64,000 nt of DNA from a virus: the IMG/VR virus record IMGVR_UViG_3300009181_000044, positions 1 through 64,000 of that record. One strand, given 5' to 3'. Below the pieces are notes generated by a model. The model was not told where the DNA came from. It did no database searches and saw nothing but the letters and a program-made list of their open reading frames with translations. Positions 582-12,868 of this stretch are shown here, one piece after another. Each line of letters opens with the position of its first letter. Position 1 is the stretch's first letter. A program made the position numbers and the translations under genes.

Positions 582-653
582 GCGTAGATTTAGGGTCAAT
601 GCACAATCAAAGTAGACTAGTCTAAAGGTTTTGGGAAAACTACGTTTAAAAAA

Positions 654-1430
654 ATGCTACAATTAAGAAAACTAACTATAACTGAATTACCACTTAACTT
701 AATTGCTACAATGACGGAAACTGAATTGGAGGATTGGGCTGTAAAGAACCAACTCAATCGCATGGGATCGTGGCTCTTGCCCCAACTTGTGGCGGCTTTT
801 GGTTCGTGGCGACTCATCCTAGTTGACGGCAAACCAGATGTTAAACTGACCCTAAAGCACAACTGTGAGTCTAGTTTAGAAGCTCAGGCATACTGGCGGC
901 TAAGCCGAATTCCACGCACGTGCCTATTAACCAAGCAGGTAGCAATTCCAGAGTATGCTGTGTTAACTCCACTAATCCTAGCAGGATTTAAGCGTATGCA
1001 GGCAGTTGGCTATGCGTCATGGCAGGGTTTAGAAAATTTAAGCTATGTCATAGAACCCCGTCTCTTGGAGGCAGTTTGTGTTGATGTGCCTGACTTAGGG
1101 TCAGAGCGACTATTGGAGATTAGACAACAGGGGTTAACAACACGCAGTGGCAAAAGTGCAGGTCAACTAAAGTCAGCAGAAACTACTTGGAGCTTGAATG
1201 GAATATCGGACACTGAGTTGGGACATCTACCCAAATTAACACAATCCATATTAGCTCAAATCTGGCTGGCCCATCCGGTTCACAGAAGTGGGCTTATGAT
1301 TTTAGATCCGGGCAACTGGGATCACATGCCAGAACCACTAATTGCACCCACAATATTTAAACAACCCATTAAAGAATCTGAAGTAATAAACGCAAAAGAA
1401 ACAGCAAAAACACTACTACCGTGGATGTAA
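654..1430 (+). CDS. conserved-looking phage protein of unknown function
   Basis: 258 residues, soluble, with no signal peptide or membrane segment. Leucine- and tryptophan-rich, with a central acidic stretch (DVPDLGSERLLEIRQQGL) and a C-terminal half reading like a compact alpha/beta domain. No motif allows a functional call. ATG 654 has only an A-rich upstream region and no good Shine-Dalgarno, so initiation may depend on the leader fold. It is followed after one base by the HTH gene at 1432, so the two are co-transcribed. The gene carries two copies of the YTTAGGGTCA motif (847-856 and 1094-1103). Confidence 0.7.
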   Translation: MLQLRKLTITELPLNLIATMTETELEDWAVKNQLNRMGSWLLPQLVAAFGSWRLILVDGKPDVKLTLKHNCESSLEAQAYWRLSRIPRTCLLTKQVAIPEYAVLTPLILAGFKRMQAVGYASWQGLENLSYVIEPRLLEAVCVDVPDLGSERLLEIRQQGLTTRSGKSAGQLKSAETTWSLNGISDTELGHLPKLTQSILAQIWLAHPVHRSGLMILDPGNWDHMPEPLIAPTIFKQPIKESEVINAKETAKTLLPWM

Positions 1431-1431
1431 G

Positions 1432-1749
1432 ATGAAATACAATAAAGAAATCACTGACCGTATTATAGCTGACTACAAGGCTAAGGTGCCAGTTCGAGAT
1501 ATAGCTAATGCAATTGACGTACCAGAACGCTCAATTATAGCAAAATTAAGCTCTTTAGGAGTTTACGAGAAAAAAACGTATGTTAATAAACGAGGTGAGC
1601 TGCCCGTAAAAAAATCCGAGCACATTGAACGCATAGCACAACTGCTTGAGGTCAATTCAGAGACCCTAGAATCGCTGGAAAAGGTAAATAAGGGAGTACT
1701 TAAGTTAATTGAACTTAAATTGACCAAATCTGACCCTAAACCAGAATAA
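1432..1749 (+). CDS. small HTH protein, paralogue 1 of 4
   Basis: 105 residues. Residues about 8-45 (ITDRIIADYKAKVPVRDIAN, then PERSIIAKLSSLGVYEKKTY) form a helix-turn-helix of the resolvase/sigma-like type, followed by a basic linker and a C-terminal helix (LESLEKVNKGVLKLIELKL). The layout is the same as in the proteins at 3145, 4266 and 9308; this is the most diverged and the only one on the plus strand. A DNA-binding regulatory role is inferred from the fold; no phage regulator name fits. The 3' end carries a TGACCCTAAA motif (1731-1740), and a strong terminator follows. Confidence 0.75.
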   Translation: MKYNKEITDRIIADYKAKVPVRDIANAIDVPERSIIAKLSSLGVYEKKTYVNKRGELPVKKSEHIERIAQLLEVNSETLESLEKVNKGVLKLIELKLTKSDPKPE

Positions 1750-1768
1750 TTGCCCATAATTCGACACA

Positions 1769-1801
1769 AGCCTACTTAATTTCGGTTAAGTAGGCTTTTT
1801 T
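1769..1801 (+). terminator. rho-independent terminator after the HTH gene
   Basis: Stem AGCCTACTTAA (1769-1779) pairs with TTAAGTAGGCT (1786-1796) around a six-base loop, followed by a T run to 1801. It ends the plus-strand operon. Confidence 0.9.
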
Positions 1802-1937
1802 GCGTCTGCTCTAATCAGGTCAAATCAGGCTATTTTGCGGCACCACTGCAATTGTTACGGTTTAGGGTCAGTAGAACTCAAAGGTTACACTTTAGGGTCA
1901 GAACAGGAACCTATGGGTAAAAATCAAGAATTTGCAC

Positions 1938-1971
1938 TTGACAAGTTGAACACACACTGGTAAAATGGCGC
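1938..1971 (+). promoter_or_regulatory. promoter of the GGCGC class (cassette 1, no palindrome)
   Basis: TTGACA (1938-1943), 17-base spacer, TAAAAT (1961-1966), immediately followed by GGCGCAG. The GGCGC after the -10 is shared with cassettes 2-9. This copy lacks the palindromic spacer. It drives the candidate small RNA at 1973-2064. Confidence 0.65.
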
Positions 1972-1972
1972 A

Positions 1973-2064
1973 GGCACGTCGAAAATTTGCGATGTGGTTT
2001 ATTTTACGCAAAACAAAGCCCCCTCACCGCGACGTGTAGGGGGCTTTGAACTCGCCAGTTTTTT
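1973..2064 (+). ncRNA. candidate small pseudoknotted RNA
   Basis: Downstream of the 1938 promoter: GCACGTCG (1974-1981); hairpin TTTGCG (1986-1991)/CGCAAA (2007-2012); hairpin CAAAGCCCCCT (2014-2024)/AGGGGGCTTTG (2038-2048). The 13-base loop of the second hairpin contains CGACGTGT (2030-2037), which pairs fully (one G-U) with 1974-1981, making a pseudoknot. Six T residues at 2059-2064 could end the transcript about ten bases after the stem. No ORF is present. Function unknown. Confidence 0.5.
2010..2048 (-). terminator. hairpin terminator on the minus strand
   Basis: The 11-bp stem 2014-2024/2038-2048, read leftward, is followed by a U-rich tail (TTTGTTTTG), fitting a terminator for the minus-strand transcript that carries the tRNA. 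The same stem is part of the plus-strand small RNA. Confidence 0.5.
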
Positions 2065-2743
2065 AGTGGTTGTCTAAGTGCAGCTGCCAAGCCGCACACT
2101 GGTTTCCTCAGTGGTTCTCTAACAGGACTTCTGGAAGACGGTCTTCACGGCCTGACCCTAAACTGCACACTGCCTCACTGACGTTACTGTGAGCATACCG
2201 GTGGTTAGGGGAGTAATGCGCTACGCTTCCAACGCTTGCGCCCTTTTTAACGACTTAGGGTCGAGCCGGTTATATTGTTGCTCCCGCTCGGACTAAAGCA
2301 GGGACTAGCCTTGTAACGTGGACAATTACGACTGATTAGAGACCGCTGCAGTTTAGGGTCATTAACGCTACTGGGGGTTCCACCCAGATTACCTGACTCA
2401 TAGGTCAAGCTCTTAAGGTCTTAGATGATAGCTGTATTTATAGAGTTCTTTCTCTTCTAGTTTTGTATTCACACTCATAGTGGAGTCGGGAGGAGTATAG
2501 ACTTTGCTCCGAGCCTAGGGTTACGTACTATTTACAAACTACCACAAGGGATTTATGTTTAGGTTCGGTTCCTGACCCTAAGCTGCGACTAGCGGTGTTG
2601 TAGTAACACGCACACTAGCTGCGATTGCTTGGGTTTCGCTAGACTTGCACTAGCTCATCAGAGGAATATGGTGGGCGGTGTGTAGCTTCTCACACCATCA
2701 AGTTGTTATCAGATTCGTAAATCTGTCGCATAACACCCAAAAC
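2049..2743 (-). ncRNA. candidate large structured non-coding RNA next to tRNA-Glu
   Basis: About 700 bases without any usable ORF, directly 3' of the tRNA-Glu on the same strand and closed by the hairpin at 2014-2048. It is dense in stems, for example GTTAT/ATAAC enclosing AGATT/AATCT (2704-2734), GGTGTG/CACACC, GCTAG/CTAGC, GTGTT/AACAC, CTGGG/CCCAG (2371-2387) and CTCAC/GTGAG. A perfect 15-bp long-range helix pairs 2153-2167 with 2347-2361, and a 9-bp helix pairs 2264-2272 with 2574-2582; these cross, so they imply a pseudoknot or alternative folds. Phage-borne giant RNAs of the GOLLD and ROOL classes also sit beside tRNAs; membership is untested. Confidence 0.45.
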
Positions 2744-2818
2744 TGGTACTCGGCAGGAGAATCGAACTCCTCTTTCCGCCGTGAAAGGGCAGCGTCCTAA
2801 CCGATAGACGAGCCGAGC
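2744..2818 (-). tRNA. tRNA-Glu (anticodon TTC)
   Basis: 75 bases with CCA encoded. The acceptor stem GCTCGGC pairs with GCCGAGT (one G-U), followed by discriminator A and CCA at 2746-2744. The anticodon arm has loop CTTTCAC with anticodon TTC; the T arm is GAGGAG-TTCGATT-CTCCTG in outline. Promoter at 2919-2947 upstream. Phage tRNAs typically compensate for codon-usage or tRNA-cleavage stress. Confidence 0.93.
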
Positions 2819-2918
2819 AGGATACTAAGGGCTGTGGCTCGGGTAATTTATTCCCCACAATTAAGACGCATAACGGATAAATCCCGTTTCCGCTGTCACC
2901 CTGAATTAATATATAATA

Positions 2919-2947
2919 ATTATAACGTAATCAAGCTCGGTAATCAA
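2919..2947 (-). promoter_or_regulatory. minus-strand promoter of tRNA-Glu, TTGATT-17-TATAAT
   Basis: -35 TTGATT (complement of 2942-2947), 17-base spacer, TATAAT (complement of 2919-2924). It belongs to the same TTGATT class as the promoters of the 4266 gene and of 3090-3118. The transcript would start near 2912 and run through the tRNA. Confidence 0.7.
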
Positions 2948-3089
2948 GTAAAAATAAACAGTCGTTGTTATCAGAACTAACTTAGGTGAATTTAAAAAAA
3001 TTAATTAGGTTGACTAAGTGTTCATTAACAAACGGGCGGCCGGGTTTTCACGGTCATTCATTAAGCCCTTCCCGACTGTTTATAAATAA

Positions 3090-3118
3090 ATTATACAGCA
3101 AATAGGGTCGTCAATCAA
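3090..3118 (-). promoter_or_regulatory. minus-strand promoter in non-coding DNA, TTGATT-17-TATAAT
   Basis: -35 at 3113-3118 and -10 at 3090-3095 (complement), 17-base spacer. Just downstream, CGACTGTTTAT (3074-3084) is complementary over 11 bases to ATAAACAGTCG (2955-2965), closing a domain of about 130 nt. The 2819-3144 stretch holds no ORF; it appears to be transcribed leader or ncRNA upstream of tRNA-Glu. Confidence 0.6.
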
Positions 3119-3144
3119 GTGAAGATTTTCTGACCCTAAATTGC

Positions 3145-3453
3145 TCAAGGCAGGCGAGCTGCCAAGAGTTCGAGTGCTTCGTGGGTTGCCTTTTCCAGGC
3201 TTTCCAGCACTTCTTCACTAGCGCCCACTTTGTAGGCAATCAGGCTTACCAGCTGAGCCTTGGTCACGCGAGTGCCAGTAGCCTTGCTTTTGGCCTTGTA
3301 CACGCCTTCGCGGCTGAGCTTGGCCACGATGCTGCGGGTAGATTTGCCCAGTTGTAGGGCAAGGATTTCTACAGCCAAGCCTTGGCTGTAACCCTGCAAG
3401 AGTTCAGCCGTTTGTTCGGCGGTGTAGTTGGTTTTGGTAGCTTCAGTCATCAT
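3145..3453 (-). CDS. small HTH protein, paralogue 2 of 4
   Basis: 102 residues. HTH core SQGLAVEILALQLGKSTRSI then VAKLSREGVYKAK, and the shared C-terminal helix LESLEKATHEALELLAARLP. It has the same length and architecture as the proteins at 1432, 4266 and 9308. Two consecutive ATG codons (3453, 3450) follow AAAAGGACAT; spacing favours the second. Own promoter at 3491-3519. GC is visibly higher than in the neighbouring minus-strand genes, hinting at separate acquisition. Probable DNA-binding regulator; target unknown. Confidence 0.75.
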   Translation of the reverse strand: MMTEATKTNYTAEQTAELLQGYSQGLAVEILALQLGKSTRSIVAKLSREGVYKAKSKATGTRVTKAQLVSLIAYKVGASEEVLESLEKATHEALELLAARLP

Positions 3454-3490
3454 ATGTCCTTTTGGTTGGTTTCTGCGCTGTTAAAAGATT

Positions 3491-3519
3491 ATTATACAAC
3501 TATTGCGGCACATCGTCAA
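3491..3519 (-). promoter_or_regulatory. minus-strand promoter, TTGACG-17-TATAAT
   Basis: -35 complement of 3514-3519, -10 complement of 3491-3496, spacer 17. It lies inside the last codons and just past the stop of the 44-residue gene at 3500-3634 and drives the 3145 gene. Confidence 0.65.
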
Positions 3520-3634
3520 ATTCAAAAAACTTGTCGTGTACGTAGATAGTACCGAGATTTTTGGATAGCTCTGTCTCCACAAATTCTGCAAACCACTGCT
3601 CCTGGTTTAAGCTGAAAAATTCGTTGTCCGACAT
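3500..3634 (-). CDS. 44-residue acidic small protein
   Basis: ATG at 3634, stop TAG at 3500-3502. The protein begins MSDNEFFSLNQEQWFAEFVE and ends EFDDVPQ; it is strongly acidic and aromatic, with no membrane segment. Shine-Dalgarno AAGGA lies nine bases upstream and a TTGCCA-17-TATAAT promoter sits at 3662-3690, so it looks genuinely expressed. Acidic tiny phage proteins are often host-takeover inhibitors or DNA mimics; here that is only a possibility. Confidence 0.6.
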   Translation of the reverse strand: MSDNEFFSLNQEQWFAEFVETELSKNLGTIYVHDKFFEFDDVPQ

Positions 3635-3661
3635 TTGCCATTCCTTGTTATCATAAAATAA

Positions 3662-3690
3662 ATTATACATAAATCAAAACTTTTTGGCAA
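3662..3690 (-). promoter_or_regulatory. minus-strand promoter, TTGCCA-17-TATAAT
   Basis: -35 complement of 3685-3690, -10 complement of 3662-3667, spacer 17. Drives the 44-residue gene. Confidence 0.6.
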
Positions 3691-3735
3691 ATGTAAATTT
3701 TTTCGCTTGATTGCGCACTTGAATCGAAAATACAC

Positions 3736-3774
3736 TTGACAACACTAGGTTTAGCACTGTATAATTTTGGCGCA
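3736..3774 (+). promoter_or_regulatory. plus-strand cassette 2: TTGACA-18-TATAAT then GGCGC
   Basis: TTGACA 3736-3741, TATAAT 3760-3765, GGCGC from 3769. The spacer is not palindromic in this copy. No plus-strand gene follows. Confidence 0.65.
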
Positions 3775-3787
3775 GGTGACACGGTGA

Positions 3788-3861
3788 TTTTTACACTTGC
3801 TTTCCCACTGGCGCAGCCGGTATACATGCTCGTTTTTACACTTGCTTTTCCACTGGCGCAG
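3788..3861 (+). repeat. 29-bp direct repeat, two copies, 45 bp apart
   Basis: Copies at 3788-3816 and 3833-3861 differ by one base; both contain CACTTGC and end in CTGGCGCAG, the same start and end as the promoter cassette (CACTTGAC ... TTGGCGCAG), as if they were shortened copies. A GGCATGCATGCC palindrome follows at 3862-3873. The 3775-4053 stretch otherwise shows only short GTAC-bounded hairpins (near 3879 and 3906) and one GTAGTAC at 3919; no credible gene. Confidence 0.7.
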
Positions 3862-4053
3862 GGCATGCATGCCCTGTCGTACTAAAGTACCACAAAATCG
3901 CCGGCAAGTACTGAAAAAGTAGTACATCCGCAAAAATAGCCGCAAACTGGCACAGAATCTGCTAATAGCAAGAATCGTGCCAGCCCCAGCGGCGCAAGAA
4001 GTATGCCAAGTGGTAAGAAAACAACATCAGGGAAAACACCTACAAAATATTTC

Positions 4054-4090
4054 TTGACACGCGCCCCAAAATTGTGTTATAATTTTGGCG
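4054..4090 (+). promoter_or_regulatory. plus-strand cassette 3 with palindromic -10
   Basis: TTGACA 4054-4059, 18-base spacer, TATAAT 4078-4083, GGCGC at 4087. The -10 lies in an imperfect palindrome (4066-4088; outer arms CCAAAATT/AATTTTGG). Upstream AACATCAGGGAAAACACC resembles the leader block of the other cassettes. Confidence 0.7.
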
Positions 4091-4092
4091 CC

Positions 4093-4184
4093 AATAACCC
4101 TACTGACTGTAGGGTTATTAAGCTAAAAAATAACCCTGCGCTGGGCAGGGTTACTAAAAATATGCTAGGGGGATTTTCACCCCC
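4093..4184 (+). other. three successive hairpins in the cassette 3 leader
   Basis: AATAACCCTAC (4093-4103)/GTAGGGTTATT (4109-4119), AACCCTGC (4132-4139)/GCAGGGTT (4145-4152) and GGGGG (4168-4172)/CCCCC (4180-4184). Together with the terminator at 4235-4261 they would make a short, highly structured plus-strand RNA of about 170 nt. Confidence 0.55.
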
Positions 4185-4234
4185 ATGCCCGAATAAAAAA
4201 TCGGATATTAAAAATTATATGATAGCATATTTTT

Positions 4235-4261
4235 AAAAAGCCCCTGCTTTTGGCAGGGGCT
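4235..4261 (-). terminator. terminator of the 4266 gene
   Basis: Stem 4239-4247/4253-4261 (AGCCCCTGC/GCAGGGGCT) followed on the minus strand by TTTTTAAAAA. Starts five bases past the stop of the HTH gene. Confidence 0.85.
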
Positions 4262-4265
4262 GTAA

Positions 4266-4592
4266 TCAAATAGGTTTACTATTTGCCAAAGCGTCAAAAA
4301 TCGCTTTCAGTGCCGATTTATTGGCTTTTGTAAGACTTTCGATGTCATTTTCCGGCAAGCGGAGAATCGCACCGATAGCGTCTGCATGAGCGTCTTTTTT
4401 GACTACAGCTTCGCCCGTTTTGGAAACGTAAGTTTTAGCCACATAGACCTTTTCGCGTGACAATTTCGCCACAACGGAACGCACAGTTTTGCCCAAATTT
4501 TGGGCAATGGTTTCCACCGATACCCCTGAGGTATAATCGGCAATCATCGCAGAGGTTTGCTCTGGAGTGTAATTTACAACTTTCGCAGTCAT
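4266..4592 (-). CDS. small HTH protein, paralogue 3 of 4
   Basis: 108 residues. HTH at about 14-45 (AMIADYTSGVSVETIAQNLG then KTVRSVVAKLSREKVYVAK), basic linker KTGEAVVKK, C-terminal helix ESLTKANKSALKAIFDAL. Very close to the 9308 protein (identical over LGKTVRSVVAKLSREKVYVA), so a recent duplication. Own promoter and terminator make it an autonomous unit. A candidate to bind the palindromes of the surrounding cassettes, but nothing in the sequence proves it. Confidence 0.8.
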   Translation of the reverse strand: MTAKVVNYTPEQTSAMIADYTSGVSVETIAQNLGKTVRSVVAKLSREKVYVAKTYVSKTGEAVVKKDAHADAIGAILRLPENDIESLTKANKSALKAIFDALANSKPI

Positions 4593-4618
4593 TTTGCTTT
4601 CCTTTCATTTAAAAATAA

Positions 4619-4647
4619 ATTATAACCCATAAACCAGAAAAAATCAA
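4619..4647 (-). promoter_or_regulatory. minus-strand promoter, TTGATT-17-TATAAT
   Basis: -35 complement of 4642-4647, -10 complement of 4619-4624. Drives the HTH gene; a GAAAGGAAAG ribosome-binding site lies between it and ATG 4592. Confidence 0.75.
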
Positions 4648-4683
4648 GTGTGTGCAAAAATACAACATAGGGGAAAACACCTA

Positions 4684-4722
4684 TTGACAACCCCCAAAAT
4701 TATATGTTATAATTTTGGCGCA
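4684..4722 (+). promoter_or_regulatory. plus-strand cassette 4 with perfect palindrome
   Basis: TTGACA 4684-4689, 18-base spacer, TATAAT 4708-4713, GGCGC. Palindrome 4694-4718: CCAAAATTATA, TGT, TATAATTTTGG (perfect 11-bp arms). The 36 bases ending at the -35 (4654-4689) are identical to those of cassette 8. Confidence 0.8.
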
Positions 4723-4727
4723 GCAAA

Positions 4728-4771
4728 GTAGTACTTTGGTTTCCAATTTTACTTGGAAACCAAAGTGTTAC
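4728..4771 (+). other. 19-bp hairpin downstream of cassette 4
   Basis: Arms 4728-4746 and 4753-4771 (start GTAGTACTTTGG, end CCAAAGTGTTAC) pair along 19 bases with two G-U pairs around TTTTAC. It has no T run, so it is not a classical terminator on either strand, and lies three bases from the stop of the convergent gene. Confidence 0.7.
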
Positions 4772-4773
4772 AA

Positions 4774-5448
4774 TCAGGCGAATTGTTCTAACAATTGTTC
4801 GCAGTGTAGCTGTACATCCAAAGTATCAACGCAATCTTTAAAATGCAGTAAAAATAACTCGGCATGATCGCCAGTAGTTATATGTGAGTGCCAAACCCCA
4901 GTATTAAAACTAAAGAAGTCACCATCACGAACATTTACAGATTCGGTAACCATTTCCTCACCCGAACCATTATCAAACAGATCAAAAATATGCTCGTCTG
5001 ACAATGCCAAATAGGGATTATTATCTGTATAATATTCAACTCCATGAAAATTCACAACTGCATCATTGTTACCTTTGATAAGCATACAAAGATTCATTGT
5101 GCTAGTGGTGTCATATATGTGACGATGTACACCCCAGTTTGCAACATAGTTTTTGCCTATGTAATAGTGCAAACCCATAGCATCCAACAATTCGATAAGC
5201 TCAGGGAAATTCTTCTCAATTTGAGACCATTCGACCTTTAGGGGTTTACCCTCTAAACCTTGGTCAAGCCTTACAATGGCATTTTCTTCGCCACCTTCGG
5301 CACAAATGCCCCAATAATCACAGTTAATGGCATTTTTATTTTTACCAAAAATATAACCTTCAACCAAGGTTAGCAAGCGTGACAACTCTTTTAAATTGTC
5401 ATCGGTTCTTTTAAATTTGACAAAATTATTGCCTACAGTTTTGATCAT
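4774..5448 (-). CDS. cupin-like / 2-oxoglutarate-Fe(II) oxygenase-like protein
   Basis: 224 residues. NWGVHRHIYDTTSTMNLCML (about 107-126) followed by VNVRDGDFFSFNTGVWHSHI (about 171-190) has the pattern of a double-stranded beta-helix metalloenzyme: His and Asp in the first strand pair, GDxxxF turn, distal His. This resembles aspartyl/asparaginyl beta-hydroxylase-like proteins common in aquatic phages. Substrate unknown. Own promoter at 5474-5503. The family call is from motif spacing; a non-enzymatic cupin is possible. Confidence 0.5.
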   Translation of the reverse strand: MIKTVGNNFVKFKRTDDNLKELSRLLTLVEGYIFGKNKNAINCDYWGICAEGGEENAIVRLDQGLEGKPLKVEWSQIEKNFPELIELLDAMGLHYYIGKNYVANWGVHRHIYDTTSTMNLCMLIKGNNDAVVNFHGVEYYTDNNPYLALSDEHIFDLFDNGSGEEMVTESVNVRDGDFFSFNTGVWHSHITTGDHAELFLLHFKDCVDTLDVQLHCEQLLEQFA

Positions 5449-5473
5449 TTTCGTTTCCTTCGTTTAAAATGAA

Positions 5474-5503
5474 ATTATACCACAAAATCCAAAAAACACA
5501 CAA
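5474..5503 (-). promoter_or_regulatory. minus-strand promoter, TTGTGT-18-TATAAT
   Basis: -35 complement of 5498-5503, -10 complement of 5474-5479, spacer 18. Drives the oxygenase-like gene. Confidence 0.6.
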
Positions 5504-5537
5504 GTGTGCAAAAATACAACATCAGGGTTTATCCCCA

Positions 5538-5576
5538 TTGACACCGGCTAAAATTATATGTTATAATTTTGGCGCA
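5538..5576 (+). promoter_or_regulatory. plus-strand cassette 5 with palindromic -10
   Basis: TTGACA 5538-5543, 18-base spacer, TATAAT 5562-5567, GGCGC. Palindrome 5548-5572 with 10 of 11 arm positions matching. It is followed by a hairpin with 13-bp arms CTGAAAACAAAAG (5580-5592) and CTTTTGTTTTCAG (5619-5631). Confidence 0.75.
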
Positions 5577-5627
5577 GCCCTGAAAACAAAAGTATTCAGT
5601 TTATTTCTAAACCGAAACCTTTTGTTT

Positions 5628-5840
5628 TCAGAAAAAGTTAAACAATCCGATTACGTTTGCAACAAAAAATGTACCATTAAGTACACCTAATGCTTTGTCC
5701 TTCTTTTGATAAGCAACCCACAACCAAGCAAGTGAGCCAAAAGTAAACAAAACATATCCAATTTGAAACATTTTGGTTGCAACGGCAAACGAACCAAAAA
5801 TACTAGTCAGAGTGCCGAACCAAGAAACAAAAGTAATCAT
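5628..5840 (-). CDS. small two/three-helix membrane protein
   Basis: 70 residues, almost entirely hydrophobic: segments at about 4-19, 26-45 and 53-70, with a KKDK turn between the second and third. The GYVLFTFGSLAWLWVAYQKK stretch resembles small phage inner-membrane proteins of the PnuC/PQ-loop type, but it is too short for a firm call. ATG 5840 is preceded by GGAGA that overlaps the end of the SprT-like gene (stop at 5844), so the two are translationally coupled. Confidence 0.65.
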   Translation of the reverse strand: MITFVSWFGTLTSIFGSFAVATKMFQIGYVLFTFGSLAWLWVAYQKKDKALGVLNGTFFVANVIGLFNFF

Positions 5841-5843
5841 TTA

Positions 5844-6197
5844 TTAAATCTCCATTGAGTGATATGCTTTAGCGGGTAAACCATATTTTACCATGATTTC
5901 AGACCATGTGCGCCCATGCCAGCGATTATTTTTTGGCAAGCCATGAAAAATATAATCAATTTGATGTGCAATTTCGTGTGGTAAAATAACATTAAGCATC
6001 TCAATTGAATGCTTTTGCATAAACTTCATGCCGAAATTAATACAATTGTTTTCAACCTCACAGTTAGCGGCAGTTACTGTAAACCTTTTGTTTGCAATAA
6101 TGACGGGTCGATCAATGCGAATCAATCGGGGATAGATTTCGCAAAATTCAAGCCATACCGAATCAGCTTTTTTGTTGATTGTTTTCATTGTGTCCAT
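5844..6197 (-). CDS. SprT-like zinc metalloprotease domain protein
   Basis: 117 residues from ATG 6197. NVILPHEIAHQIDYIFHG carries the HExxH zinc site (residues 74-78) and HGRTW supplies the third ligand (His94), as in SprT/Spartan-like proteases that act on DNA-protein crosslinks. The C-terminal zinc ribbon of SprT is absent. Start uncertain: a -10 TATAAT (complement of 6204-6209) lies only six bases before ATG 6197, so the message may be leaderless; ATG 6188 is the alternative, and a longer TTG start at 6215 would lie upstream of transcription. Confidence 0.75.
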   Translation of the reverse strand: MDTMKTINKKADSVWLEFCEIYPRLIRIDRPVIIANKRFTVTAANCEVENNCINFGMKFMQKHSIEMLNVILPHEIAHQIDYIFHGLPKNNRWHGRTWSEIMVKYGLPAKAYHSMEI

Positions 6198-6265
6198 GCC
6201 TGAATTATACATCAAAACCCCGTTGTTTTTTAATCACACACAAAAAATAAGTTATTAAATAATGC

Positions 6266-6302
6266 TTGACAAGCCCCAATTATATAATATATAATTGGCG
6301 CA
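6266..6302 (+). promoter_or_regulatory. plus-strand cassette 6 with perfect palindrome
   Basis: TTGACA 6266-6271, 18-base spacer, TATAAT 6290-6295, GGCGC. Palindrome 6276-6298: CCAATTATAT, AAT, ATATAATTGG. Confidence 0.8.
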
Positions 6303-6305
6303 GCC

Positions 6306-6355
6306 AGAAACGAAAGTATTACATTTCGTTTCTTTTTGAAAACCTGAGTTTTCAA
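6306..6355 (+). repeat. 50-bp hairpin block, copy 1
   Basis: Hairpin AGAAACGAAA (6306-6315)/TTTCGTTTCT (6324-6333) followed by TTTT and a second hairpin GAAAAC/GTTTTC. The block is identical to 7641-7690. On the plus strand the first stem with its T run could terminate the cassette 6 transcript after about 40 nt. Confidence 0.8.
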
Positions 6356-6609
6356 TTTTTCTTGGCTGGGCAAATTTTGTAGTACAAAATAATTGCAATA
6401 AAAATTAAGTTTGCGGCATAATTGAAAACCAAAGGTAACATCATGGTGGGAAAAACGAAAACAAAAGTAAACACCTCGCCAAAGCCCCACATAAGCAAAA
6501 ACCCCCATGTAAGCCCATCAGAGTTCTTATTTTGATAAGATTCGATAGCTTGTGGCAAGCCACAAAATGCCAACAAAATCGAACCAGCCCAACCAAAAAT
6601 TTCTAACAT
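6352..6609 (-). CDS. PQ-loop / SemiSWEET-like membrane protein
   Basis: 85 residues, three predicted membrane helices (about 5-18, 33-52, 58-77). GLPQAIESYQNKNSDGLTWG is a clear PQ-loop signature, as in SemiSWEET sugar transporters and related bacterial triple-helix units that dimerise. Role in infection unknown; sugar or small-metabolite leakage is a guess. ATG 6609 has AGGTGAAATT upstream and a promoter at 6648-6676. Confidence 0.75.
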   Translation of the reverse strand: MLEIFGWAGSILLAFCGLPQAIESYQNKNSDGLTWGFLLMWGFGEVFTFVFVFPTMMLPLVFNYAANLIFIAIILYYKICPAKKN

Positions 6610-6647
6610 AATTTCACCTATATAATTTTATCTACAGTCACGCACCG

Positions 6648-6676
6648 ATTATAGGGCATCTCTGAATTGTCGTCAA
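6648..6676 (-). promoter_or_regulatory. minus-strand promoter, TTGACG-17-TATAAT
   Basis: -35 complement of 6671-6676, -10 complement of 6648-6653, spacer 17. Drives the PQ-loop gene. The 6677-6762 stretch beyond it is AT-rich and shows nothing else. Confidence 0.65.
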
Positions 6677-6762
6677 TATCATATCGTTTTTGTGTGTAAA
6701 AAAACAACAATAACAATATAACCCAATAAATGCGATATTTTGAAATAATAATCATTTTATTA

Positions 6763-6786
6763 ATAATCGGGATTTCTCCCGATTAT
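6763..6786 (-). terminator. hairpin terminator after the exonuclease gene
   Basis: ATAATCGGGA/TCCCGATTAT with a four-base loop, followed on the minus strand by an AT-rich run; starts four bases past the exonuclease stop. Confidence 0.7.
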
Positions 6787-6789
6787 ATT

Positions 6790-7488
6790 TTATTTTGCAA
6801 CAAAGTGGTTTTTAACCTGAAAATCTTGCCACGCATAAGGTTTGATATTATCAAGCCAATTGCGTTTTTTGATTATGTGCGAGAGAATGGGCAGTTCAAA
6901 ATCTCGGGCATCTTCTAATGCGGTATGCGGTTCAATAATAATATTATTATTAATAAAGCCACACACAATCTCAGCATTAGTTTTGAATGTCATATTGCCA
7001 TTTTTTGTGGCATTATTAAATTGGTGATTATCAAGCGCAAATTGTTTAAATGCTTTTTTATTGCAGATATTACCAACGCTCGCTTGCCAAAGGCAAAATC
7101 GAGAATTAAACCCTGATAAATCAATGCCAGTATTTGCACATTTTGACAAATCAAAAGCCAGATTATATGCAGTCAATGAGGGATTATATTTGCCAATGGC
7201 TTGATTAATCCATTTATTAATGGCATTAACTGAGGCGGACATTCTCGCCCCTGTTTCTAGCATGGCATTATATCCGGCTTTGCGTTTTTGCAAACCAGCA
7301 TAACCCCAAATATCATTTGCATTTTTATCATGGAATAATTCCATTGTGCTATAATGCCCGATTACCAAAACCGCACATTGATTGTAAATTTTACCATTAC
7401 GATCAACAATCACAATGGCAAAATCTGCCACAGTGTCATTAATGGTTGTCTCAGTGTCGAGAATTGCAAAAAATTGTTTTTTAGCCAT
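6790..7488 (-). CDS. DnaQ-like DEDDh 3'-5' exonuclease
   Basis: 232 residues. Exo I FAILDTETT (D11, E13), Exo II TAYNLAFDLSKC (D113) and Exo III EPHTALEDARD (H188, D193) give the complete DEDDh set of RNase T / polymerase epsilon-subunit type exonucleases. It stands alone, away from replication genes, so RNA/DNA turnover or end trimming is as likely as proofreading. TATAAT (complement of 7518-7523) with an extended TTGATG element lies upstream, with TTGTGC as a possible -35 at 19 bases. Confidence 0.85.
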   Translation of the reverse strand: MAKKQFFAILDTETTINDTVADFAIVIVDRNGKIYNQCAVLVIGHYSTMELFHDKNANDIWGYAGLQKRKAGYNAMLETGARMSASVNAINKWINQAIGKYNPSLTAYNLAFDLSKCANTGIDLSGFNSRFCLWQASVGNICNKKAFKQFALDNHQFNNATKNGNMTFKTNAEIVCGFINNNIIIEPHTALEDARDFELPILSHIIKKRNWLDNIKPYAWQDFQVKNHFVAK

Positions 7489-7600
7489 TGTGTGCCATCG
7501 TGTTGTTGAAGTCCCAATTATACATCAAAAAACCGCCCCACGCACAAAAAATTTAAAAATATTTTTTTGTTGTATTTACGCAAATTAGGGGTTTACCCTA

Positions 7601-7637
7601 TTGACACGCGCCCAATTATACTAGTATAATTGGCGCA
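7601..7637 (+). promoter_or_regulatory. plus-strand cassette 7 with perfect 22-bp palindrome
   Basis: TTGACA 7601-7606, 18-base spacer, TATAAT 7625-7630, GGCGC. Palindrome 7612-7633 (CCAATTATACT/AGTATAATTGG), uninterrupted. Upstream AGGGG, TTTA, CCCT forms a second small inverted repeat next to the -35. Confidence 0.8.
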
Positions 7638-7640
7638 GCT

Positions 7641-7690
7641 AGAAACGAAAGTATTACATTTCGTTTCTTTTTGAAAACCTGAGTTTTCAA
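7641..7690 (+). repeat. 50-bp hairpin block, copy 2
   Basis: Identical to 6306-6355. Including the preceding cassette sequence (ATAATTGGCGCAGC), the match is 65 bp with one mismatch, evidence that cassette plus hairpin move or duplicate as a unit. Confidence 0.8.
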
Positions 7691-7881
7691 ATTATGTGAA
7701 ATTTATCTTTGGGGGTTTCATCCCTTGCAAGTGAACAAATTATCACAGCTTGAAACCATCCGCAAAAATATAAACCAGCAATCCAAAGTAAACCGCCGTC
7801 TTCGTAAGCCCTTAGTCCACACAAAAGGGTTGTAACAGTAGTCAGAATAGTTAAAAAGATTTTGAAAACAGAAGTGTTCAT
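7687..7881 (-). CDS. small membrane protein
   Basis: 64 residues from ATG 7881 (AAGGACATTAAAATG gives a good ribosome-binding site; a longer reading frame would run into the HAD gene). Two hydrophobic segments at about 5-21 and 29-47, then a polar tail ARDETPKDKFHII. No family recognised. It follows the HAD gene by one base, so it is co-transcribed. Confidence 0.65.
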   Translation of the reverse strand: MNTSVFKIFLTILTTVTTLLCGLRAYEDGGLLWIAGLYFCGWFQAVIICSLARDETPKDKFHII

Positions 7882-7882
7882 T

Positions 7883-8359
7883 TTAATGTCCTTGTTTGCT
7901 TGGTACATATACGCCACGAATATCAAAACGATCACAAACCGCTTTTAGATAAGTAATATTATCTTCATAAAATGTAAATTCGGCATCTTTGAAATTTAGC
8001 AAATTAAAGAATTTAGCCAAACCTGCAATTTTAAGGGTTGCACCTGATACATTGTCGCCATCTTTGCGAGATATGATATAATCTGGTTCGCCTAGAATCT
8101 CGCTAATAAATTGATTATCAGCATCCCGCAAAACACGGGCAGTAGCAATAATAACAAAACAATTCTCATTTCTGAGGTCTGTTTTGTATTGTTCTGCCAA
8201 TGGTAAAAGTGAATCTTCCAATGCACGATATTCATTTTCACGCCAATAATCAAGGTCGATACGCTCGCCATTGTCGCCAATGATAGTGCGATACCGATGC
8301 AATGAGTCAACAATTGTGCCATCCATGTCATATATTGAAACCTTTGTGATTTTAGCCAT
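7883..8359 (-). CDS. HAD-superfamily phosphatase
   Basis: 158 residues. Motif I SIYDMDGTIVDS (nucleophile D11, acid D13), motif II CFVIIATAR (T73), motif IV FYEDN (E132, D133). The cap is minimal, as in polynucleotide 3'-phosphatase-like and nucleotidase HAD proteins of phages. Substrate unknown. ATG 8359 is preceded by AAGGAAAAG, and TATAAT with the extended TTGATG element (complement of 8391-8396; -35 TTGTTG) lies upstream. Confidence 0.85.
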   Translation of the reverse strand: MAKITKVSIYDMDGTIVDSLHRYRTIIGDNGERIDLDYWRENEYRALEDSLLPLAEQYKTDLRNENCFVIIATARVLRDADNQFISEILGEPDYIISRKDGDNVSGATLKIAGLAKFFNLLNFKDAEFTFYEDNITYLKAVCDRFDIRGVYVPSKQGH

Positions 8360-8462
8360 TTTTGCTTTTCCTTGTTACGATAGAGCAATTATACATCAAA
8401 AATCGCCCATACAACAAAAAATATTGAAAATAGCAAAAATACAACATAGGGGAAAACACCTA

Positions 8463-8499
8463 TTGACAGACCCCAATTATATAACATATAATTGGCGCG
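8463..8499 (+). promoter_or_regulatory. plus-strand cassette 8 with perfect palindrome
   Basis: TTGACA 8463-8468, 18-base spacer, TATAAT 8487-8492, GGCGC. Palindrome 8473-8495: CCAATTATAT, AAC, ATATAATTGG. Confidence 0.8.
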
Positions 8500-8502
8500 C
8501 CC

Positions 8503-8550
8503 ATGTAGTACCTTTGTTTTCAATTTTTCCTGAAAACAAAAGCATTACAT
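8503..8550 (+). other. 20-bp hairpin downstream of cassette 8
   Basis: Arms 8503-8522 (begins ATGTAGTACC) and 8531-8550 (ends GCATTACAT) pair over 20 positions with two mismatches and one G-U. The far end reaches the stop codon of the convergent gene. Confidence 0.65.
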
Positions 8551-8717
8551 TAATCAACCTGTATGTCTACAATTTTTTCTTGTGTGCTATCAGTCACAAT
8601 GTACATTGTGACCACGCCAAGTCCAACCATATACACACAATTTTGAATTGTGTGTATTATAGCATGAGGGTATTTTTTGCCAACATAATCAGCAACAACC
8701 AAGGGGATATTATTCAT
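8550..8717 (-). CDS. 55-residue protein, end of a micro-gene chain
   Basis: ATG 8717, stop TAA 8550-8552. Begins MNNIPLVVADYVGKKYPHAI and contains a hydrophobic stretch (CVYMVGLGVVTMYIV, residues about 27-41), so possibly membrane-bound. Its ATG overlaps the stop of the preceding 24-codon ORF as ATGA. No family recognised. Confidence 0.6.
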   Translation of the reverse strand: MNNIPLVVADYVGKKYPHAIIHTIQNCVYMVGLGVVTMYIVTDSTQEKIVDIQVD

Positions 8718-8788
8718 TTTGATAACCAATACAAAAGCGAAACCTTAACGGCAACAAACACAGAAAACCACAAAAGAAATTCAATCAT
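8714..8788 (-). CDS. 24-residue membrane micropeptide
   Basis: ATG 8788, stop TGA 8714-8716. Sequence starts MIEFLLWFSVFVAVKVSLLY: a single membrane helix ending in WLSK. It overlaps both neighbours by ATGA. Could be a functional micropeptide or a coupling ORF. Confidence 0.5.
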   Translation of the reverse strand: MIEFLLWFSVFVAVKVSLLYWLSK

Positions 8789-8985
8789 AACCAACCTTCT
8801 TCAGCTTTTTGATAAGAGTCCATGCTGTCCACAATCTTGTGCAAAGCCTCGAATTGTTCTTGCAGAAATTCTCTAGATTCCCATTCTTGTGGGGTGAAAT
8901 GTCTGGGACGCATACCATGTACATCCTTATAAAAATCCCAAATGGTATCCTGCAATTGTTGCAGGGTTGTGTGTTCGTTAAACAT
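8785..8985 (-). CDS. small acidic helical protein
   Basis: 66 residues from ATG 8985, whose A is the last base of the preceding TGA (TGATG overlap). Mostly helical and acidic (LQEQFEALHKIVDSMDSYQK, C-terminal EEGWL), with MRPRHFTPQEWESRE in the middle. No domain recognised. Second gene of a chain 9116 to 8550. Confidence 0.65.
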   Translation of the reverse strand: MFNEHTTLQQLQDTIWDFYKDVHGMRPRHFTPQEWESREFLQEQFEALHKIVDSMDSYQKAEEGWL

Positions 8986-9116
8986 CAAAGATCATCCTCA
9001 GAGAAAAATTGTTCAAGTGCCCCATTGTATTCGGAAAGGTTTGCAAACGCAAGACCATTACGATCACAGAATCGGTGAAAGCGGTTTAATTGTGCTTTAG
9101 TGTATTTTGTTTTCAT
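8985..9116 (-). CDS. 43-residue basic/acidic small protein, leaderless
   Basis: ATG 9116, stop 8985-8987. Begins MKTKYTKAQLNRFHRFCDRN and ends EQFFSEDDL: a basic N-terminal helix and acidic tail. TATAAT (complement of 9124-9129) lies only seven bases before the ATG, so transcription should start at or near the start codon; the upstream in-frame extension would not be transcribed. No family recognised. Confidence 0.6.
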   Translation of the reverse strand: MKTKYTKAQLNRFHRFCDRNGLAFANLSEYNGALEQFFSEDDL

Positions 9117-9123
9117 GTTGTCT

Positions 9124-9151
9124 ATTATACAAGGTTTTCTAAGATTTGCAA
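9124..9151 (-). promoter_or_regulatory. minus-strand promoter, TTGCAA-16-TATAAT
   Basis: -35 complement of 9146-9151, -10 complement of 9124-9129. Drives the four-gene chain 9116-8550 with almost no leader. Confidence 0.55.
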
Positions 9152-9188
9152 GCGTTTTGCGAAAATACCACATAGGGACAAACCCCTA

Positions 9189-9225
9189 TTGACACACCCC
9201 AATTTTATGTGATAAAATTGGCGCA
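9189..9225 (+). promoter_or_regulatory. plus-strand cassette 9 with perfect palindrome
   Basis: TTGACA 9189-9194, 18-base spacer, TAAAAT 9213-9218, GGCGC. Palindrome 9199-9221: CCAATTTTAT, GTG, ATAAAATTGG. Upstream TAGGG, ACAAA, CCCCTA is a second inverted repeat abutting the -35. Confidence 0.8.
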
Positions 9226-9229
9226 AACA

Positions 9230-9283
9230 AAGTAGTACCTTTGTTTGCAAAAGGGCAAGTAGTACCTTTGTTTGCAAAAGGGC
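9230..9283 (+). repeat. perfect 27-bp tandem repeat, two units
   Basis: Units 9230-9256 and 9257-9283 are identical, each carrying GTAGTACCTTTGTTTGC. CAAACAAAG just upstream pairs with CTTTGTTTG in either unit around TAGTAC, so two alternative hairpins are possible. Confidence 0.85.
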
Positions 9284-9305
9284 AGGGTCAATAACCCTGC
9301 CCTTT
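9277..9305. terminator. bidirectional terminator between cassette 9 and the HTH gene
   Basis: AAAGGGCAGGGT (9277-9288) pairs with ACCCTGCCCTTT (9294-9305). It lies two bases past the stop of the minus-strand gene; the minus-strand side continues TTTTGC. Confidence 0.75.
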
Positions 9306-9307
9306 GG

Positions 9308-9631
9308 TCAGGCTTTTTCAGCCTTGATAAAATCGGCAATTTTTGCCAATGCAGTTTTGTTAGCCTTAGTCAGCGAATCAGCATCAGCCTCAGAGAGTGC
9401 CAGTGCCTTAGCGATGAAATCAGCGAATTCATCTTTTTTAACAACGGCTTCACCCGTCTTGGTGGTGTATGTCTTGGCAACATAAACCTTCTCGCGAGAG
9501 AGTTTAGCAACAACAGATCGAACAGTTTTGCCAAGGGATTCAGCAATGGATTCGACCGATGTGCCAGCCTGATAGTCAGCGACCATTTTAGCGGTTTGTT
9601 CGGCAGTGTAGTTTACAGTTTTTGCAGTCAT
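9308..9631 (-). CDS. small HTH protein, paralogue 4 of 4
   Basis: 107 residues. HTH at about 14-45 (KMVADYQAGTSVESIAESLG then KTVRSVVAKLSREKVYVAK), linker KTGEAVVKK, C-terminal helix DSLTKANKTALAKIADFI. Nearest relative is the 4266 protein. TATAAT (complement of 9672-9677) upstream and GGAGA ribosome-binding site. Expected to bind DNA as a dimer via the C-terminal helix; that is inference. Confidence 0.8.
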   Translation of the reverse strand: MTAKTVNYTAEQTAKMVADYQAGTSVESIAESLGKTVRSVVAKLSREKVYVAKTYTTKTGEAVVKKDEFADFIAKALALSEADADSLTKANKTALAKIADFIKAEKA

Positions 9632-9688
9632 AGAAAAATCTCCATTTAGTTGAGAGGTTGAAAAGAATTTATTATATCACACATTTAG

Positions 9689-9772
9689 TTAATAAAGCCA
9701 TACCCACAAAGGGGCAAAGGCTATTGCCACAAATAGGATAGCTTGCAGAAATTCAATAGCAAGTTGTTTCAT
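9689..9772 (-). CDS. 27-residue membrane micropeptide
   Basis: ATG 9772, stop TAA 9689-9691. MKQLAIEFLQAILFVAIAFA then PLWVWLY: one membrane helix. AAGGTG is seven bases before the ATG and a TTGATC-17-TATAAT promoter sits at 9803-9831; an in-frame ATG pair further upstream would give 36 residues. The signals make it more than a random ORF. Confidence 0.55.
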   Translation of the reverse strand: MKQLAIEFLQAILFVAIAFAPLWVWLY

Positions 9773-9802
9773 GTTGGTCACCTTGTTTGTCATCATGTAT
9801 TT

Positions 9803-9831
9803 ATTATAACATCAAAACAAAAAAAGATCAA
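9803..9831 (-). promoter_or_regulatory. minus-strand promoter, TTGATC-17-TATAAT
   Basis: -35 complement of 9826-9831, -10 complement of 9803-9808, spacer 17. Outermost promoter of the minus-strand accessory zone. Confidence 0.65.
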
Positions 9832-9840
9832 GTGTGTGTT

Positions 9841-9895
9841 TAAATACAACATTAGGGAATGTACCTATTGACAGGGGGGTTAAGAGACATACTGT
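9841..9895 (+). other. degenerate cassette 10 at the boundary of the accessory zone
   Basis: Keeps the leader block (AAATACAACATTAGGGAATG, then TACCTA) and TTGACA (9868-9873), but the palindrome, TATAAT and GGCGC are gone (a G run and unrelated sequence follow). It marks the end of the cassette array. The rest of 9896-10019 holds no gene or clear signal. Confidence 0.6.
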
Positions 9896-10019
9896 TACAC
9901 ACACGCTACTGGACCCACCCACACGGCCTATCAGGGGAAATTTTTGGAAACCCATCTGGGTGCGTAAACCACTGCACACAACAAAACACAACCGCAAAAA
10001 CCACCACAAAAAAATCAAC

Positions 10020-11252: not shown

Positions 11253-11579
11253 ATGATTACCATAACCGCTGCGGCTCACAAACAAATTGCAGAAGTATTA
11301 GCTAAACGTGGTCATGGTATCGGTATTAAGATTGGTGTCAAAACTACTGGGTGTAGTGGGTTAGCTTATGTACTGGAATATGTAGATAGTATGGACTATA
11401 CAGAAAATACTGTGAATTATAGCCTAACAGACTTTTGTGTGCTAGTTAGTTTAAAGGACGAGCCTTACCTAAAAGGTTTAACAATGGATTGGGTTCGCGC
11501 AGGACTTAATACAGGTTTTGATTTCCAAAACCCAAATGAACGTGACCGCTGTGGTTGCGGAGAAAGTTTTCGAGTATAA
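11253..11579 (+). CDS. iscA: A-type iron-sulfur cluster carrier (IscA/HesB-like)
   Basis: 108 residues, full domain length. Cys34 in KTTGCSGLAYVLEYVD and the C-terminal pair Cys100/Cys102 in RDRCGCGESF are the three conserved cluster ligands. The protein accepts and delivers Fe-S clusters to apo-enzymes. Related genes are known from marine phages as auxiliary metabolic genes. It sits immediately upstream of the terminase large subunit with a one-base TAATG overlap, so it is expressed late with the structural genes. Confidence 0.92.
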   Translation: MITITAAAHKQIAEVLAKRGHGIGIKIGVKTTGCSGLAYVLEYVDSMDYTENTVNYSLTDFCVLVSLKDEPYLKGLTMDWVRAGLNTGFDFQNPNERDRCGCGESFRV

Positions 11580-12868
11580 TGAGCTTAATAATTTCCCGAC
11601 CAGACGTCAATTGTGACGTAATAGTTGACTTTCCCGCTACCACACGCTTTATCAAGCTGCCTATTACCAACTACCTAAAGTTATTAGATATCTACGATAC
11701 TATCAACCGACCCCAAATTGCATTAATCAACGCAGTCAACGATCCACAATACCGTTTTATCTGCGCAGCCCTAGCTCGCCGACTAGGCAAAACTTATATC
11801 GCCAACATTATTGGGCAATTAGTAACCTTAGTGCCTGGGTCTAATGTCTTAATTATATCGCCTAACTATAATCTCAGCTCAATCTCATTTGAGCTGCAGC
11901 GCCGCCTAATCAAACACTTTGACCTAGAAGTTTCACGAGACAACTTAAAAGACAAGATCATTGAACTTGAGAATGGCAGCACCATTCGCATGGGCTCACT
12001 TTCGACTGTGGACTCAACTGTGGGTCGCAGCTACGACTTAATTATCTTTGATGAAGCTGCATTGGGTGAAGGTGGTGAAGCTGCCTTTAACGTTGCACTT
12101 CGCCCAACCCTAGACCGACCAGGTGCTAAGGCCCTTTTCATCTCAACTCCACGTGGTCGCAACAACTGGTTCTCACAGTTTTACAATCGCGGATTTGATC
12201 CCAACTTTCCAGAATGGGTTTCGCTACAAGCTGACTATACAGAAAATACCCGCATGGCAGAATCAGATGTTGACGAAGCCCGCCGAAGCATGAGCAAGGC
12301 AGAGTTTGAGCAAGAGTACATGGCCAGCTTTACCACGTATGCAGGTCAAATCTATAACTATAGTGCCCAAGATGTAGAAACACCCGCAACCGACTTGATG
12401 GGCGAAGCCATTGCTGGCTGTGACCCTGGCTATCGCGACGAAACTGCGTTTGTGGCTGTGGTATACGATCATAAAACCGATTGTTTTTGGGTAGTAGACG
12501 AATACTTAAAAGCGGAAAAAACCACACGTGAGCATGCAGAGCAGTTTCAGCTGTTATGTGTGAAGTGGGGTATAGAAACCATTTTTATTGACTCAGCAGC
12601 TGCACAGTTTGCGTCAGACTTAGCTTACCTTTACAACTTGGCAACCACCAAGGCTAAAAAAGACGTGCTCCCCGGAATTGCTTATGTACAAACCTTAGTA
12701 CAACAAAATCGCCTTAAAGTGGCCCCACACTGCCAGCATGTGCTAGCTATGTTAGATCAATACCGCTGGGATGATAAAGAAGGCTTGCAACGCGAGCGTC
12801 CTAAGCACGATAAGTACTCTCACATGGCTGATGCCTTACGATATGCACTTTATACTTATACACTATGA
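11579..12868 (+). CDS. terL: terminase large subunit
   Basis: 429 residues from ATG 11579 (overlapping the IscA stop). ATPase: Walker A ARRLGKT (66-72), Walker B LIIFDEA (D158, E159), coupling motif ISTPRGRNNW (188-197). RNase H-like nuclease: D282 in GCDPGYRDET, D338 in FIDSA, and HMADALRYA near the C-terminus. It powers DNA translocation into the prohead and cuts the concatemer. Confidence 0.95.
   Translation: MSLIISRPDVNCDVIVDFPATTRFIKLPITNYLKLLDIYDTINRPQIALINAVNDPQYRFICAALARRLGKTYIANIIGQLVTLVPGSNVLIISPNYNLSSISFELQRRLIKHFDLEVSRDNLKDKIIELENGSTIRMGSLSTVDSTVGRSYDLIIFDEAALGEGGEAAFNVALRPTLDRPGAKALFISTPRGRNNWFSQFYNRGFDPNFPEWVSLQADYTENTRMAESDVDEARRSMSKAEFEQEYMASFTTYAGQIYNYSAQDVETPATDLMGEAIAGCDPGYRDETAFVAVVYDHKTDCFWVVDEYLKAEKTTREHAEQFQLLCVKWGIETIFIDSAAAQFASDLAYLYNLATTKAKKDVLPGIAYVQTLVQQNRLKVAPHCQHVLAMLDQYRWDDKEGLQRERPKHDKYSHMADALRYALYTYTL

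Follow-up and report, generated by a model that had tools for sequence, protein, structure and literature searches.

The promoters of the N4 virion RNA polymerase carry a hairpin with a small loop close to the start site, and in promoter early stem-loops (PeSLs) the promoter drives the next gene. For T4-like phages, PeSLs are described as mediators of shuffling that consist of a promoter and a stem-loop (PMC4503421). T5-type phages use the host sigma70 polymerase throughout; in T5, the discriminator is reported to be the main feature that separates early from late promoters, and the mechanism that switches between the gene classes is reported as unknown (PMC7472727). The major nicks of T5 lie at R/GCGCRGG (PMC3517423). 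The subject of this work is an array of promoter-hairpin cassettes in a 64,000-nt window of viral DNA (positions 1-64,000 of IMG/VR record IMGVR_UViG_3300009181_000044, which has 98,857 bp in its entirety). In this array, sigma70-type promoters with GGCGC behind the -10, here termed P+, point against the leftward (minus strand) genes between them; a hairpin (H1) follows the GGCGC, and in most cassettes a palindrome (H2) surrounds the -10. With a probability of about 0.5, P+ would, judged from its sequence, constitute a distinct host-sigma70-type promoter class directed against each pre-early unit, serving to insulate it or shut it off.

A preliminary description of this DNA had listed eight plus-strand promoters with 18-bp spacers and GGCGC, seven of them in palindromes of which five were perfect, and all directed against the genes. 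All eight are indeed present (at 3736, 4054, 4684, 5538, 6266, 7601, 8463 and 9189), on the plus strand only, with TATAAT as the -10 in seven and TAAAAT in one (9189), and every gene between P+ sites lies on the minus strand. The palindrome CCAAW..WTTGG holds the -10 in seven of the eight and is perfect in five (4684, 6266, 7601, 8463 and 9189); a single mismatch interrupts it at 5538, and at 4054 its arms are shorter. A ninth P+ at 1938, which that list did not include, has a 17-bp spacer, TAAAAT and GGCGC, and lacks a palindrome. The GGCGC lies 0-3 nt after every P+ -10. In the window, 9 matches to TTGACA-N17-19-TATAAT compare with 0.03 expected from dinucleotide shuffles, and 11 matches to TTGACA-N16-19-TAWAAT with 0.21 expected by chance, so that the objection which the description had itself foreseen, an equal frequency in shuffled DNA, does not apply. 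The consensus search over the full genome that it had proposed, run with TTGAC-N17-19-TAWAAT-N0-3-GGCGC, returned exactly nine sites in the 98,857-bp record, all on the plus strand and all within 1938-9224; read backwards, the pattern has 0 occurrences in the record. The -35, the -10, their spacing and the extended -10 all agree with sigma70 promoters, and P+ is by these features well supported as a promoter.

Two IMG/VR searches yielded 160 loci, and the 39 related arrays comprise 524 kb. Among the first relatives, GGCGC accompanies each of the 253 TTGACA-18-TAWAAT sites that have the array orientation and no site on the opposite strand; the 39 arrays hold 235 P+ sites on one strand and 0 on the other. 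P+ is convergent to the next gene in 207/233 cases in the phage arrays. Where this string occurs in bacterial genomes, it points with the following open reading frame in 57/72 cases and is palindromic in 3/80; it behaves there like an ordinary promoter, and in the phage arrays it is thus turned against the genes. Other T5-like lineages (L192, L237 and others; pattern scan) have terminase, dmp-like HAD and HNH genes, and in these lineages P+ faces leftward pre-early-type genes without a palindrome; single P+ sites also occur in lineages that have no array. P+ resembles the T5 promoter classes, which likewise are of the host sigma70 type and are reportedly set apart mainly by the discriminator, but the scanned regions of T5 and Vibrio phage X1 yielded no GGCGC/18-bp class that opposes pre-early genes.

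The P+ cassettes fall into three classes. Class I (1938-1971 in the window, TTGACA-17-TAAAAT with GGCGC and a non-palindromic spacer) lies close to the TAGGGTCA region, and the conserved hairpin that it faces (GCCCC..GGGGC) looks like a leftward terminator; the hairpin faced by the 1938 P+ (~2014-2048) is likely the leftward terminator downstream of the tRNA-Glu. Class II lies at the left array end (3736-3773, TTGACA-18-TATAAT with GGCGC and again a non-palindromic spacer), with units GCACTTGAC..CACTGGCGC behind it at intervals of ~42-46 bp. Class III, the palindromic class, accounts for 208 of the 255 unique cassettes. In the window it comprises, each with its GGCGC, 4054-4091 (imperfect palindrome 4066-4088), 4684-4721 (perfect palindrome 4694-4718 with the -10 inside), 5538-5575 (5548-5572, one mismatch) and, with perfect palindromes, 6266-6301 (6276-6298), 7601-7636 (7612-7633), 8463-8498 (8473-8495) and 9189-9224 (TAAAAT; 9199-9221), all on the plus strand as are the other P+ sites. 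An extended -10 (TGn) is present in 165/208 class III cassettes, and the base right after GGCGC is never T in the 255 cassettes. Two further promoter types of the clade can be told apart from P+ (18 bp, GGCGC), namely the P- promoters of the leftward units (TATAAT, poor -35, no GGCGC in 130/131) and late promoters (17-bp spacer, often a ACTAGTAAT or CGTGTAAAC discriminator). That P+ sites are themselves late promoters is ruled out, the late sites having 17-bp spacers without GGCGC. Just past the terminase of L004, L018, L111 and others, a late TTGACA-17-TATAAT is followed by a conserved ACTAGTAAT discriminator.

What maintains the palindrome around the -10? Nine right-arm types can be distinguished by the third base of the -10 and the discriminator, and the spacer holds the complement of its own type and almost never that of another. 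The right arm predicts the left arm in 166/219 cassettes, with a mean of 53 and a maximum of 68 in 1000 shuffles. A subset of fixed length contains 14 sequences with a two-sided A-T to T-A change and no unpaired case, and sliding the partner abolishes the signal. With one exception, the palindromes are centred 1-3.5 bp upstream of the -10; their outer length is mostly 20-31, and the loops are small. The preliminary description had considered operators, and the palindromes could in principle bind the D5-like helix-turn-helix paralogues, which would repress P+; indeed three short D5-like DNA-binding paralogues are encoded within the array (3145-3453, 4266-4592 and 9308-9631, all minus strand), and the palindromes cover the -10. 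A single dimer, however, needs constant half-sites and spacing, and neither was found: the nine matched arm types, which change together, the shift of the centre and the variable outer length misfit one dimer. Moreover, a short gene that agrees in size and position, itself without a Pfam match, is present in L192, a lineage with no palindrome. The single-dimer operator could thus not be upheld, an operator function of this kind appears quite improbable, and maintenance through base-pairing is the better account of the H2 sequences.

Pairing in H2 suggests a further step, which we put forward tentatively and regard as rather doubtful: P+ may be a structure-gated sigma70 class in which a DNA hairpin, free to vary in sequence provided that it pairs, sequesters the -10; DNA topology would set its activity, and the array would be a topology-driven switch from pre-early to later genes. 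The cassettes share with the N4 promoters the hairpin with a small loop close to the start site, but P+ differs from these in having a sigma70 consensus with a -35, and long stems.

H1, the structured sequence that the preliminary description had placed behind the promoters, starts at a median of 3 nt past GGCGC and is present in 97% of cassettes, compared with 4.5% of shuffled sequences and 18% of random windows. Its fold z-scores range from -3.7 to -5.9 at six of the seven array sites tested, on the plus strand at 4093-4119 (directly after GGCGC, -5.6), 4728-4771 (19-bp stem, -5.8), 5580-5631 (-5.9), 6306-6333 (10-bp stem, -4.9), 7641-7668 (10-bp stem, -4.7) and 8503-8550 (-3.7); the seventh, at 9223-9248, is weak (-1.7). 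A role of H1 as a standard intrinsic terminator is ruled out, as there is a U-run on neither strand. A AAAGTATTAC/AAAGTATTCA motif recurs on the plus strand in the H1 hairpins of the array, and relatives often have two copies per cassette. A third element, H3, is a short inverted repeat (ATAGGGG..CCCTAT) at 9172-9189 on the minus strand, just upstream of the P+ -35, that resembles a weak leftward terminator, and similar repeats precede several other P+ sites. As H3 thus reads in places as a weak leftward terminator beyond P+, H1 and H2 may fall within the 3' untranslated region of the leftward messages, and both could simply be hairpins of these mRNA ends which P+ overlaps by constraint. This we consider very unlikely, since an intrinsic terminator ahead of H1 seems to close some of the units, since the G-T/T-G pairs of H2, which are A-C on the minus strand, outnumber the reverse (28 cells, though mostly at stem ends), and since the promoter consensus would be left unexplained.

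The window derives by sequence from an uncultured T5-like phage (Demerecviridae): its large terminase, which marks the start of the late genes (11555-12868, plus strand), is 48-51% identical to those of Vibrio T5-like phages, and T5 proteins hit the window in late-gene order. The array is flanked on one side by the terminase and on the other by a non-coding region with many TAGGGTCA copies. The same interval of Vibrio phage X1 holds leftward genes together with the pre-early genes A1, DNA-binding protein and dmp, one array gene resembles T5 dmp (E 1.7e-9), and relatives of D5 are present; from this position and content we infer that the array is the pre-early region. T5-type A1 and A2 had no match in a BLAST-level search of the phage's own genome, a record that is possibly incomplete, so that their absence is not proven. 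Among named phages, neither the array DNA (DNA-level search) nor the array helix-turn-helix protein found a match.

Mechanistically, P+, set apart by its 18-bp spacer and GGCGC discriminator and found at almost all 3' ends of the leftward pre-early units, would recruit the host RNA polymerase, which would start an RNA near GGCGC. This RNA would fold at once into H1 and be antisense to the 3' end of the unit. Transcription against the unit would provide insulation between neighbouring units and, once P+ is active, help to shut the opposed unit off. H2, apparently kept by pairing, has the -10 within one of its arms in most cassettes, so that a hairpin or cruciform probably gates the opening of the promoter. 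At the same time, the cassettes delimit modules that are shuffled between relatives. We infer the activity of P+, the time of its firing, the repression or insulation and the gating by H2 from the DNA sequence. Several points weigh against such a mechanism. Template-switch correction during replication can also yield palindrome symmetry, without selection, and the wobble pairs leave undecided which strand folds and whether it folds as RNA or DNA. The cassettes counted are related sequences, which lowers the effective sample below 219. As H1 has no U-run, a short terminated RNA is not predicted, and the RNA from P+ could be long or end through Rho. Class II follower units contain GGCGC as well but have no -10, so that GGCGC may have a role outside transcription. 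Finally, P+ was not found in the scanned T5 and X1 regions, so that direct homology gives no guidance so far. The layout, conserved and unstudied, recurs in dozens of relatives and may be a way to separate or switch off the first genes. With a conserved promoter class directed against the pre-early genes of a large uncultured clade, antisense or topology-based switching becomes directly testable, and >200 variants of one promoter-hairpin element form a natural compact set.

The units opposed by P+ each have their own P- promoter just upstream of the start, with TATAAT and a poorer -35, and all features of this kind lie on the minus strand. In the window, P- sites belong to the units 4266-4592 (4619-4647, TTGATT-17-TATAAT), 4774-5448 (5474-5503, TTGTGT-18-TATAAT), 5628-6215 (6204-6233, TTAAAA-18-TATAAT), 6790-7488 (7517-7547, TTGTGC-19-TATAAT) and 7883-8359 (8388-8417, TTGTTG-18-TATAAT), and another lies at the right edge of the array (9803-9831, TTGATC-17-TATAAT). 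The leftward genes encode a weakly cupin-like protein without counterpart in other arrays (4774-5448), a small membrane protein (5628-5840) that forms a shuffled module with an SprT-like metalloprotease (5844-6215), a PQ-loop membrane protein (6352-6609), a 232-aa protein of unknown family that is kept in nearly all arrays (6790-7488) and the HAD phosphatase that resembles the pre-early T5 dmp (7883-8359). A fourth short protein, at 1432-1749, is related to part of the D5-like regulators, and a full-length D5 lies beyond the window at 76217-76951 of the record.

Among the relatives, the modules (small membrane protein and SprT), (PQ-loop and 232-aa protein) and (dmp-like) are arranged in three or more orders, always leftward, and P+ blocks are found at most module borders. 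Could the blocks then serve mainly as recombination homology that moves accessory modules, as PeSLs do, with the backward promoter activity being incidental? Module order indeed varies while orientation is fixed, the blocks recur between unrelated genes, and a shuffling element built of promoter and stem-loop has its precedent in the PeSLs of T4-like phages (PMC4503421). The cassettes share with these the repeated intergenic blocks of promoter and stem-loop, with H1 in 97% of cassettes, at the borders of accessory genes whose module orders differ across the 39 arrays. Incidental promoters, however, would not retain -35, -10, spacer and GGCGC on one strand over 235 sites, lineages that lack an array still have single P+ sites, and the direction is wrong for a PeSL, the promoter being convergent in 207/233 instead of driving the next gene. 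A mere shuffling cassette therefore seems unlikely. The mobile PeSL-like module of the preliminary description holds as far as the position at the edges of a shuffled gene array is concerned, whereas P+ faces the preceding unit, its -10 lies in a covarying palindrome, its discriminator is GGCGC, and the phage is T5-like.

A last alternative concerns GGCGC itself, which might be the recognition core of a phage nickase, as at the T5 nick sites, with the hairpins lying alongside. The GCGC core and the T5-like phage are in line with this, T5 nicks lie on the terminase-coding strand just as the array GGCGC does, and GGCGC is present in follower units that have no -10; two such units CACTTG..CCACTGGCGCAG, of a type that forms a short tandem unit after class II promoters in relatives, lie at 3795-3862 (plus strand). 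However, T5 nick contexts have no -35 or -10, and in an ungapped window search with four of them the array GGCGC sites were not among the best matches. Within the array region, R/GCGCRGG is matched at 1967, 3769 and 3855 only, and T5 nicks occur genome-wide while the array sites are restricted to 1938-9224. With this promoter context, restricted location and lack of flank similarity, nick sites are an improbable explanation. We file the cassettes as a variant of phage promoter-stem-loop cassettes that belongs to neither PeSLs nor T5 nicks, because the promoter direction of the former and the full consensus and flanks of the latter are not found.

The tandem units GCACTTGAC..CACTGGCGC of class II (3795-3862 and in relatives) look iteron-like. 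Of the 13 copies of TAGGGTCA in the window, 10 lie on both strands within 591-3131 and 3 elsewhere; this region is possibly an injection-stop or origin region. The single tRNA-Glu (2744-2818, minus strand) lies inside the non-coding region and is alone above threshold in Rfam. At the junction of array and late genes, a bare -35 with its upstream repeat remains as a remnant (9871-9876, plus strand). Between the array and the late genes, a conserved block GGGGCGGTTARTAGAC..CACACGC..CCCACCCACACGCGGCCTA at 9877-9960 is present also in relatives, in some of which it serves as the spacer of a TTGACA-17-TATAAT promoter.

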